64,000 nt of DNA from an uncultured Flavobacteriaceae bacterium. GTDB lineage: Bacteria; Bacteroidota; Bacteroidia; Flavobacteriales; Flavobacteriaceae. Under the pieces are notes generated by a model, which ran no database searches, was not told the DNA's origin, and saw only the letters and a program-made list of their open reading frames with translations. The DNA is taken from contig CAJJAZ010000007.1 of assembly GCA_905182295.1 (NCBI GenBank), positions 62,001-126,000 of the forward strand. The letters are read 5' to 3'. A program made the position numbers and the translations under genes. Shown here piece by piece: positions 7,193 to 55,774 of the stretch. Each line of letters starts with the position of its first letter. Position 1 is the stretch's first letter.

Positions 7193-7264
7193 AGCGTTAA
7201 AAACTTAAAGATATGTTTTTATTAATTCAAGGGATGTAACCTATTTTGATTTATTGTGAGTTGG

Positions 7265-7723
7265 TTACTTTACAATAGGTATATACATACTCACCAGGCA
7301 TTTCTTTTCAGGATGTGACTGATAATCGTTGTGGTATATCTCAAAAGGGTTTTGACCGCTTGGTCTGTACCCATTGGCATTCATCCAGTCATACAAACTA
7401 GCCCAAGTGCCCGGAAATTCATGCAGGCCTATTTCAAAATCACCTATGATACAAGTACAAGCCTCTATAATAATGTTGTCTAGTGAACTATCTTCCAAGG
7501 CTCTAGATCTTGTTACACAGGCACTCATTCTCACTTCGTTTGCAGGTGTGTCTCTAAAGCTATCATGAAAAATGCTAAGAATTTTCGTCTGAGGATCTTC
7601 CATGACTCCTTTCTCTATAGCCAAATGAACCACCTTTGTTAAGGATGGTGACAGATTTTCTACTCCTATACATGGAACGGCTAGTAAGGATAAGGGGCTA
7701 ATTCCTTGTACACGTACTTTCAT
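7265..7723 (-). CDS. GyrI-like (AraC effector-binding-like) small-molecule-binding domain protein
   Basis: EVRMSACVTRSRAL...GDFEIGLHEFPGTWASLYDWMNANGYRPSGQNPFEIYHNDYQSHPEKKCLVSMYIPI. Confidence 0.75.
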   Translation of the reverse strand: MKVRVQGISPLSLLAVPCIGVENLSPSLTKVVHLAIEKGVMEDPQTKILSIFHDSFRDTPANEVRMSACVTRSRALEDSSLDNIIIEACTCIIGDFEIGLHEFPGTWASLYDWMNANGYRPSGQNPFEIYHNDYQSHPEKKCLVSMYIPIVK

Positions 7724-12824: not shown

Positions 12825-12955
12825 ATGAAAACATCCATTATTGTTCAAAATTTAAGGTGTGGTGGTTGTGTCACAGCTAAGATTGGAAAAAAGGATTAAT
12901 GAAACAATTGTTTCAAAGATTAAAGTTTTGACTGGTTATATTTAAGAATTAAACA
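12825..12955 (+). pseudogene. Heavy-metal-associated (HMA) domain fragment, frameshifted
   Basis: MKTSIIVQNLRCGGCVTAKIGKKD* stops after 24 aa; the adjacent frame reads LEKRINETIVSKIKVLTGYI, consistent with an HMA continuation. Confidence 0.55.
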
Positions 12956-12967
12956 TTAACCAGACCA

Positions 12968-13561
12968 ATGAAAAAACAACATCAAATTGTTATTATAAGC
13001 GGTGGAACAGCCGGTATAATGACCGCTACTCAGTTACTTAAGAAAAACAACCATTTAGATATTGCTATCATAGACCCAGCAGATACGCATTACTACCAAC
13101 CTGCATGGACTTTGGTGGGTGCAGGAGCCTATGATTATGACAATAACGCTAGATCTATGGCTAGTTTAATTCCTAAAAAGGCTAGCTGGATAAAAGACTT
13201 TGTCACTTCATTTAATGCAGATGAAAACACTTTAGACACTAAAAATTCAGGACAAATTGGATATAAATTTTTAGTGGTTGCACCAGGATTGGTTATGGAT
13301 CCATCCTTGATTGAAGGGCTTCCAGAAGCTATGGAGAAAGGGATTGTTTGTTCTAATTATACCGATCCAAAGCACACTTGGGAAACTATTAAAAATTGGT
13401 TTGCCTCTAGCGGAATTCAAGTAGATTCCGAATTGGTATTTTCTTTTGTAGCAGAAGAGAAAATTGCGCCTTTATTCAAAGCCTTAAGGGCCTTTAACGA
13501 ATCTCTTGAAGATGCTAGTCCTATTCACGCAGTGGTCGTGCCAATAGAACAAAGCTTATAA
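12968..13561 (+). pseudogene. Truncated sulfide:quinone reductase-like N-terminus fused to an unrelated C-terminus
   Basis: MKKQHQIVIISGGTAGIMTATQLLKKN...DPADTHYYQPAWTLVGAGAYDYDNNARSMASLIPKKASWIKDFV...IVCSNYTDPKHTWETIKN is SQR-like, then NWFASSGIQVDSELVFSFVAEEKIAPLFKALRAFNESLEDASPIHAVVVPIEQSL; 197 aa versus ~400 aa for a complete SQR. Confidence 0.65.
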
Positions 13562-13591: not shown

Positions 13592-13777
13592 ATGTTACAC
13601 AGAATGATCAAAGGAATTGCAGGATCTTTTATATTAATTAGTCTTGCGTTATCTATTTATGTCAATCAAAATTGGTTGTGGTTTACAGCCTTTGTAGGAG
13701 CCAATTTATTTCAATCATCTTTGACCAATTGGTGCTTAATGGAAGTTATTTTAAAAAAGTTAGGCGTAAAGAAATAA
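13592..13777 (+). CDS. YgaP-like transmembrane (DUF2892) protein
   Basis: MLHRMIKGIAGSFILISLALSIYVNQNWLWFTAFVGANLFQSSLTNWCLMEVILKKLGVKK. Confidence 0.85.
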   Translation: MLHRMIKGIAGSFILISLALSIYVNQNWLWFTAFVGANLFQSSLTNWCLMEVILKKLGVKK

Positions 13778-14293: not shown

Positions 14294-14502
14294 TTTTTGA
14301 ATTGTTTGTTAGGGAATCCCCTAAATTTATAATACCCATTTCAAAAGTAATGATTTTGTAGGAATATACTTTCTTTTTTGATTATAATTTCAAAATATTA
14401 CTGTTTTTCGTTTTTATTTTTATAACGTCCTTCGTGAAATTTCATATGCTTGAATAAGCTATTATTGGCTTTTTTGTACATTCATATTTTATATCTTTTT
14501 CT

Positions 14503-15528
14503 ATGAAGTACTTTCAACCGATTTTACTGGCCTCTATATTTATGTTTTATTCCTGTAATCAAGGCTCAAAAACCCAAGCACCACCAGATGGAATGATTTG
14601 GATTCCAGCAGGGAAATTTATACAAGGCGCTGTAATGGGCGACAAAATGGCTATGAGTCATGAAAAGCCTTCGCATGAAGTTTCTATCAGTGGATTTTTC
14701 ATGGATACTACTGAGGTTACCAATGCCCAATTCAAAAAATTTGTAACAGCTACCCATTACATTACTATTGCTGAGCGGGCTATTGATTGGGATGAAATGA
14801 AAAAACAGCTTCCGTTAGGGACTATAAAACCTCACGATAGTATCTTACAAGCAGGTTCTTTAACTTTTAAACCATCAGAAGATAAATTGCCTAATTTATA
14901 CGATTTTTCTCAGTGGTGGCGTTGGACCATTGGCGCCAATTGGAGGCACCCTCAAGGACAAAATTCAACTATAGAAAGAAAAGACAACCACCCTGTAGTA
15001 CATATTGCTTATCAAGATGCCTTGGCCTACTGTGAGTGGAGAGGAAGAAGCCTCCCTACCGAAGCCCAGTGGGAATATGCAGCCAGAGGGCAGCAAGATG
15101 GAATATATGCTTGGGGTACAGATGGGGCTATACTCTCTAAACAAGCCAATAGTTGGGAAGGTAGTTTTCCCGATACAAATACCATGATGGATGGTTTTTT
15201 AGGTACCGCGGTAGTGGGCAGTTTTCCGCCCAATCAATTTAATTTATACGATATGAGCGGGAATGTTTGGGAATGGACTTCTGATTGGTATGACCCCAGG
15301 TATTACAAGATGTTGGCAACAACTAAAGGGCTTATTAAAGATCCCAAAGGAGCTACAAATGCCTATAATCCTAACAATCCCTATACCCCTGAAAGAGTGA
15401 TTAAAGGAGGGTCTTTTTTATGTAATGCTGCTTATTGTGCCAGTTATAGAGTATCGGCCAGAATGGCCAGTTCAGAAGACTCCGCGTCTGAGCATAAAGG
15501 TTTTAGAACAGTAATAAACCTAGATTAA
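14503..15528 (+). CDS. formylglycine-generating enzyme (SUMF1/EgtB/PvdO family), lipoprotein
   Basis: GMIWIPAGKFIQGA...FFMDTTEVTNAQFKKFV...LPTEAQWEYAARG...NVWEWTSDWYD; both catalytic-type Cys in GGSFLCNAAYCASYRVSAR. Confidence 0.9.
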   Translation: MKYFQPILLASIFMFYSCNQGSKTQAPPDGMIWIPAGKFIQGAVMGDKMAMSHEKPSHEVSISGFFMDTTEVTNAQFKKFVTATHYITIAERAIDWDEMKKQLPLGTIKPHDSILQAGSLTFKPSEDKLPNLYDFSQWWRWTIGANWRHPQGQNSTIERKDNHPVVHIAYQDALAYCEWRGRSLPTEAQWEYAARGQQDGIYAWGTDGAILSKQANSWEGSFPDTNTMMDGFLGTAVVGSFPPNQFNLYDMSGNVWEWTSDWYDPRYYKMLATTKGLIKDPKGATNAYNPNNPYTPERVIKGGSFLCNAAYCASYRVSARMASSEDSASEHKGFRTVINLD

Positions 15529-54573: not shown

Positions 54574-54784
54574 GGGGCTACTTTTAATTTAATAATTTGT
54601 GCTTTTGCTAGCGCATGGATGGTCTCTATGTACGTCTCTTTTTTTTAAAAGTCATTGATATGTGTTTACATCTAAGTTCATCTCAAAAAAACTACTTCTA
54701 CTAAGGCTCTTATTGAATAGCATTTTCTGAAATGCTTAAGTGATATAATGGCCTATAATAATCCATCCAATTATCTGTTCATAA

Positions 54785-55024
54785 TTATTGTTTAAAATAC
54801 AATTCTTTGAAGTAAATAATTGACCAAATGGGTACTATAAACTTCCAGATATCTTTATTGTTAACTATGCCTCTACTTTTTAAAACATAATAATCTAGAA
54901 TACATCTGTATATATAGTAACAGAAGATCAGTAAAATTATTCTACTTTCATTAAAATACAAAGTAGCACTGATGATTAAAATTAATGGTAAAAATATAGC
55001 TGTATAGTATTTTTTTAAAGTCAT
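54785..55024 (-). CDS. small predicted membrane protein (79 aa)
   Basis: MTLKKYYTAIFLPLILIISATLYFNESRIILLIFCYYIYRCILDYYVLKSRG...IWKFIVPIWSIIYFKELYFKQ; directly downstream of the lipoprotein gene. Confidence 0.6.
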   Translation of the reverse strand: MTLKKYYTAIFLPLILIISATLYFNESRIILLIFCYYIYRCILDYYVLKSRGIVNNKDIWKFIVPIWSIIYFKELYFKQ

Positions 55025-55033
55025 TTTTTTTAT

Positions 55034-55774
55034 TTAAAAAGATTCATAACATTGACCACCTGTAGGATAATTATCATAAGCACACAAAGCGGCCATGCCT
55101 ATAGCAACTTGTGGAACAAAAGCTGTTGATATTGAAACAAAAAGCGATGTCCAGCCTCTTTTAGAGTAAACATCTTCCATACAATCCACTATAGCTTGTC
55201 CATATGATCCTTCAAAACATTTAAATCCACTTTTTATAATACCAAAAGAACTTTTTTTATTTATTGGTGATGATTTAAATTTAATTTCTTTTGATATTTT
55301 GTTGAAGGTTACGCTCATTATTGATTTACCACTTAAACTAAAATATTCAATTTTTTTAATATTTTCAGAAAAATTTAAAGTTTTAACATGAAACAAAGGT
55401 CTTATGACTCCATTCTCTTTTAAAAAACTAACACCATTATTTTCTGAATTATTTGGATTAATATTTTTTTGATTCACTATGATAAACTCTTTATCATCGA
55501 TTTTATATGAATTGACATTATTAAAATCCAAATCGAACTCACTATTTTTGTTAATTAAATTTTCAGTAATTTTAGATTCATGCCATTTTTTAATCCTCTC
55601 TATATTTGCATTGTTAGTTTTATCAAATTGCAATTCATTAAGAGGATGTTCAATTATGTTTTCTGATCTTTGATTTTTATCCAATACATTAAGCTCCGTT
55701 GTTGATTCATTGGAACAACTTACTAAAAAGATTAAGATACAAGTTAAACTACTTTTTAAGAAAATATTTTTCAT
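55034..55774 (-). CDS. hypothetical lipoprotein with C-terminal Cys-containing hydrophobic domain
   Basis: Lipobox LTCILIFLVSCSNE; C-terminus GFKCFEGSYGQAIVDCMEDVYSKRGWTSLFVSISTAFVPQVAIGMAALCAYDNYPTGGQCYESF. Confidence 0.7.
   Translation of the reverse strand: MKNIFLKSSLTCILIFLVSCSNESTTELNVLDKNQRSENIIEHPLNELQFDKTNNANIERIKKWHESKITENLINKNSEFDLDFNNVNSYKIDDKEFIIVNQKNINPNNSENNGVSFLKENGVIRPLFHVKTLNFSENIKKIEYFSLSGKSIMSVTFNKISKEIKFKSSPINKKSSFGIIKSGFKCFEGSYGQAIVDCMEDVYSKRGWTSLFVSISTAFVPQVAIGMAALCAYDNYPTGGQCYESF

Follow-up and report, generated by a model that had tools for sequence, protein, structure and literature searches.

In the 64,000-nucleotide stretch of DNA that we analyzed (the window, from contig C7 of a 1.36-Mb assembly of an uncultured Flavobacteriaceae bacterium), an open reading frame of 197 codons joins the N-terminal part of a sulfide:quinone reductase (SQR) to the C-terminal part of a small P-II-like protein (Table 1). 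As an instance of gene loss it is clear but unremarkable. We put a probability of about 0.92 on the reading that this lineage lost a sulfide/efflux module by deletion between short direct repeats and that the chimeric frame left behind is nonfunctional. The locus illustrates, cleanly and stepwise, the loss of a sulfide-oxidation and efflux module from a small flavobacterial genome via short repeats, and it carries a caution, in that the chimeric frame may get annotated as a short SQR.

Table 1. Features of the chimeric locus (positions in the window unless a congener locus is named)
Feature	Position	Strand	Evidence
Rhodanese-domain protein, intact, 113 aa	12466..12807	+	PF00581 E=2e-19; 92% to G009
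HMA-domain gene remnant, 24 aa MKTSIIVQNLRCGGCVTAKIGKKD (about 91 aa in congeners), in-frame internal deletion	12825..12899	+	Alignment to L112, L113, L115
HMA deletion junction, 9-bp direct repeat GTTGTGYCA	12865..12873	+	
Perfect dyad TGAAACAATTGTTTCA (TGTAACNNNNGTTACA in congeners), 68 bp upstream of SQR start	12900..12915	.	
Dyad in congener loci	L112 10484, L113 11435, L114 4315, L115 3310		
Chimeric ORF, 197 aa: SQR N-terminal part + P-II-like C-terminal part	12968..13561	+	
SQR part, residues 1-143 (FAD-binding N-terminal region only)	12968..13396	+	
Deletion junction, 10-bp direct repeat ATTAAAAATT, in both parents	13388..13397	+	
Exact junction DNA AACTATTAAAAATTGGTTTGCC; peptide across fusion point TWETIKNWFASSGIQ			
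P-II-like part (C-terminal ~56 residues + stop; second half of the fold)	13391..13561	+	
YgaP-like transmembrane protein, 61 aa, intact, end of ancestral cluster	13592..13777	+	PF11127 E=1.5e-10; 98% to G009

A reading frame with two parents

The original prediction, made from the window's sequence alone, held that the frame starts as an SQR whose second half is missing and ends as a small P-II-like protein. Both parts of this description agree with the relatives. Residues 1-143 align to congener SQRs, with identities over the compared region of 93% to the G010 protein and 89% to the G009 protein, and the homology then stops, 143 residues into a protein of 420. The stretch from residue ~142 to 197 matches a P-II-like protein whose parent gene lies 6.7-7 kb downstream in congeners, and both that gene and the predicted fold of its product bear out the proposed origin of the C terminus. 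Past the fusion point the reading frame is that of the P-II-like gene; the other two frames hit stops within 10 codons.

When 60 relatives were searched, only the chimera's own genome matched it over its full span (residues 1-197). Four congeners matched at two separate places, not one: residues 1-150 fell within a long SQR frame (89-93% in G001, G009, and G010; 79% in G011), and a stretch from about residue 111 or 139 to residue 197 fell within a short frame, open over 110 codons. This bears on the possibility, raised with the prediction, that many genomes share a genuine short family of this two-part architecture. Nothing that we found favors such a family. SQRs stay open well past the junction in the congeners and at 80 loci of other genomes, P-II-like homologues are separate frames of ~101-110 aa, and no other genome among 400 of the family has a match spanning the junction. 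Within the collections searched this reading is refuted, and its probability is close to nil.

The intact cluster in relatives

In the four congeners, the two parents lie 6.7 kb apart in a cluster ordered rhodanese, (HMA), SQR (420 aa), TolC-type outer-membrane protein (451 aa), periplasmic adaptor (MFP, 357 aa), RND permease (1,065 aa), P-II-like protein (101 aa), and YgaP-type transmembrane (TM) protein (61 aa). The rhodanese-HMA-SQR-...-YgaP order against which the prediction had proposed to align the locus is present in congeners. The cluster is intact on a single strand in G001 (locus L112), G009 (L113), and G011 (L114), and in G010 it is split over two contigs (L115 and L116), which part within the RND gene. 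On the cluster's flanks, window and congeners are colinear. The state seen in the window is derived, because the SQR-pump-P-II arrangement is found in G011 too, a more distant genome. Going by family membership, the intact module (rhodanese, HMA, SQR, RND pump, P-II-like, YgaP-TM) would form one cluster for sulfide oxidation and efflux, pairing the former with export of a metal or another substrate.

The HMA-domain-like gene, about 91 codons long with a CxxC metal-binding motif, stands between rhodanese and SQR in the congeners. No HMA gene is detectable there in G011 (L114, 4236-4382), apparently through an independent loss or replacement.

Two deletions between short direct repeats

Agreement with the relatives reaches position 13397 on the SQR side and starts at 13388 on the P-II side, and the 10 bp of ATTAAAAATT are therefore common to both parents. 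The probability that random breakpoint pairs in the region share at least 10 bp is about 2.8e-5. The geometry is that of a short-repeat deletion: relatives and outgroup have the intact arrangement, a direct repeat stands at both breakpoints, and one copy is left. The missing DNA amounts to 6,700 bp against G009 and 6,702 bp against G001. The prediction had placed the junction near 13388-13402, as we find it, and had attributed the gene fusion to an internal deletion, which the intact relatives confirm; its estimate of perhaps a kilobase or more, however, fell well short of the 6.7 kb lost, which also included the complete TolC, MFP, and RND genes, and a second deletion, in the HMA gene, had gone unreported. 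There, 201 bp are gone between copies of a 9-bp repeat (null probability, 9e-5) and 24 codons are left.

We read the course of events as follows. An ancestor carried the cluster rhodanese-HMA-SQR-TolC-MFP-RND pump-P-II-like-YgaP-TM. Two copies of the 10-bp repeat, one in SQR codons 141-144 and the other in the P-II-like gene, were joined via recombination, slippage, or end-joining. As the comparison with relatives shows, the resulting 6.7-kb loss took two thirds of the SQR, all three parts of the efflux pump, and the P-II-like gene's first half, and its ends met in frame by chance. The 201-bp deletion between the 9-bp repeats took most of the HMA gene. The lineage appears to have dispensed with the module.

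We also considered relocation of the lost genes and rejected it, as no copy was found in the assembly, though this is 61% complete: the SQR query returned the truncated copy only, the RND protein had no match in the rest of the assembly, and the missing DNA segment gave only short chance matches.

A different concern is that the junction arose during assembly or amplification and that the organism keeps an intact cluster. The assembly is a draft, 61% complete in 8 contigs, and amplification chimeras also exploit short homologies. Against this, usual assembly overlaps are longer than 10 bp, the missing DNA is on no other contig, and colinearity with G009 holds in the rest of the window. Moreover, the HMA deletion, two substitutions of invariant residues, and a mutated dyad (see below) all lie within 600 bp. 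An artifact is improbable on this evidence, and we take the junction as real because a short repeat, several independent marks of decay, and clean colinearity elsewhere come together.

What the chimera retains

Even the retained SQR part is altered. As the prediction had noticed, the first Gly of the GxGxxG motif (Gly11) is Ser (SGGTAG); this Ser occurs only here, all 81 intact SQRs having Gly, and the chimera lacks the motif expected of a functional SQR. Thr60, whose column is invariant in the 81 intact SQRs, is replaced by Asn (T60N). Beyond the junction, and hence absent from the chimera, lie Cys160 (conserved in 81/81) and Cys357 (80/81; congener numbering), which the alignment places within motifs common to mitochondrial/human SQOR and which, from what is established for SQOR, we take to be the catalytic redox cysteines. 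The C-terminal quinone-binding and membrane-anchoring region is likewise not in the chimera.

The second parent is P-II-like by its modeled fold. The intact protein is predicted (pLDDT 76) to form a beta-alpha-beta-beta-alpha-beta fold, in which one loop (residues 36-54) is of low confidence, and the model matches solved P-II and P-II-like structures at E about 4e-6. Membership of either the Pfam P-II family or NCBIfam PG0541 is not established, because the intact protein scores under both cutoffs. The deletion breakpoint falls inside the 36-54 loop, and of the complete fold the chimera keeps the last beta-alpha-beta only. The chimera's own model, built from a shallow alignment, has a pLDDT of 51.5, with values below 45 in every block past the junction; the parent reached 76 despite an even shallower alignment.

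With both SQR cysteines, the quinone-binding and membrane-anchoring C terminus, and half of the P-II fold lost, we infer that the chimera is a nonfunctional fusion pseudogene without SQR or P-II activity. Inactivation of the SQR, which the prediction had proposed, is likewise favored by the lost catalytic cysteines, the lost C terminus, and G11S. Two observations count against decay: the frame is open over 197 codons with no stop acquired, and both deletions are in frame, an outcome expected in 1 of 9 cases by chance. They would suit an incipient gene born by deletion, in which a flavin-binding remnant and a P-II-like remnant make up a new small protein that is expressed and selected. Such a protein would, however, have to work with a broken motif (SxGxxG), changed conserved residues, and neither the catalytic cysteines nor half of each fold; the model past the junction is of very low confidence, and no other genome among the 400 of the family has the chimera. 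We regard a functional fusion as very improbable.

Substitution counts are suggestive only. Nonsynonymous and synonymous changes in the chimera stand at 5:5 on the window lineage, compared with 2:8 on the G010 lineage (Fisher P = 0.17; few changes) and with 2:15 in the window's rhodanese gene (P = 0.04; few changes), a pattern consistent with relaxed selection on the chimera; a formal case was dropped for too few changes. The rhodanese gene has a dS of 0.52 versus G010, with values of 0.15 for the adjacent SQR part and 0.12 for YgaP, and 15 synonymous changes on the window lineage; its higher synonymous divergence possibly marks a recombination boundary.

The wider window

The decay is local: of the 54 ORFs that G009 has in the syntenic span, 44 reach at least 90% coverage in the window. 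Outside the locus, window and G009 align colinearly in long blocks that share about 84-90% identity. Decay of the whole genome and poor assembly were rejected as accounts, since losses relative to G009 within the window cluster at the chimera locus and two gene-content replacements. About 3 kb is missing relative to G009 near 7.2 kb (7220-7278), and a segment near 55 kb is replaced (54632-55659). A further 1.1 kb or so (14391-15511) is not at that place in G009, G001, or G010; it holds most of a gene (14503-15528) whose product looks by eye like a formylglycine-generating/sulfatase-modifying protein.

A conserved dyad upstream of SQR

Of 80 related flavobacterial loci, 40 have the dyad TGTAACNNNNGTTACA upstream of SQR, at a distance of 59-87 bp (median, 70; 37 measured). 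It occurs exactly once per genome, just upstream of SQR, in five of the six congeners searched (G001, G003, G009, G010, and G011); G004 has zero copies. Judged by conservation and position, it appears to be an operator, whose regulator would serve SQR almost exclusively. The window has TGAAACAATTGTTTCA instead, with symmetrical changes in both arms that preserve the dyad, and the window's genome has no copy of the canonical form. A switch in operator specificity was considered and set aside: counts of TGAAACNNNNGTTTCA in these genomes are 0-3, versus 0-1 for a reversed control, with no clear sign of a new regulon. Our literature search on the dyad found nothing. The conserved dyad of the intact module points to an identifiable regulator and may interest specialists more than the deletion does.

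Comparison with known systems

The intact congener SQR matches mitochondrial SQOR (PDB 6oi5, 6mo6) at E about 4e-94, and residues 1-143 of the chimera align with the N-terminal FAD-binding part of that enzyme. The chimera differs in lacking both catalytic cysteines and the C-terminal two thirds and in having Ser for the first Gly of GxGxxG.

Its C-terminal ~56 residues resemble RND-linked P-II-like proteins (P-II-NG, PMC7726332; NCBIfam PG0541; CPII 5d4l by fold), with which the congeners' intact gene also shares its place directly after an RND gene; the chimera differs in lacking the N-terminal half. A literature search linking PII-like with RND in those words found nothing, and one relevant paper, on P-II-NG, was found. 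Because that paper describes P-II-NG proteins near CzcABC pumps (PMC7726332), the remark made with the prediction, that P-II-like proteins are often found near such loci, was sound.

As in known deletions between short direct repeats, by replication slippage or alternative end-joining, one copy of the 10-bp repeat and one of the 9-bp repeat are left; the case stands out only because one cluster underwent two such events and because the fusion is in frame.
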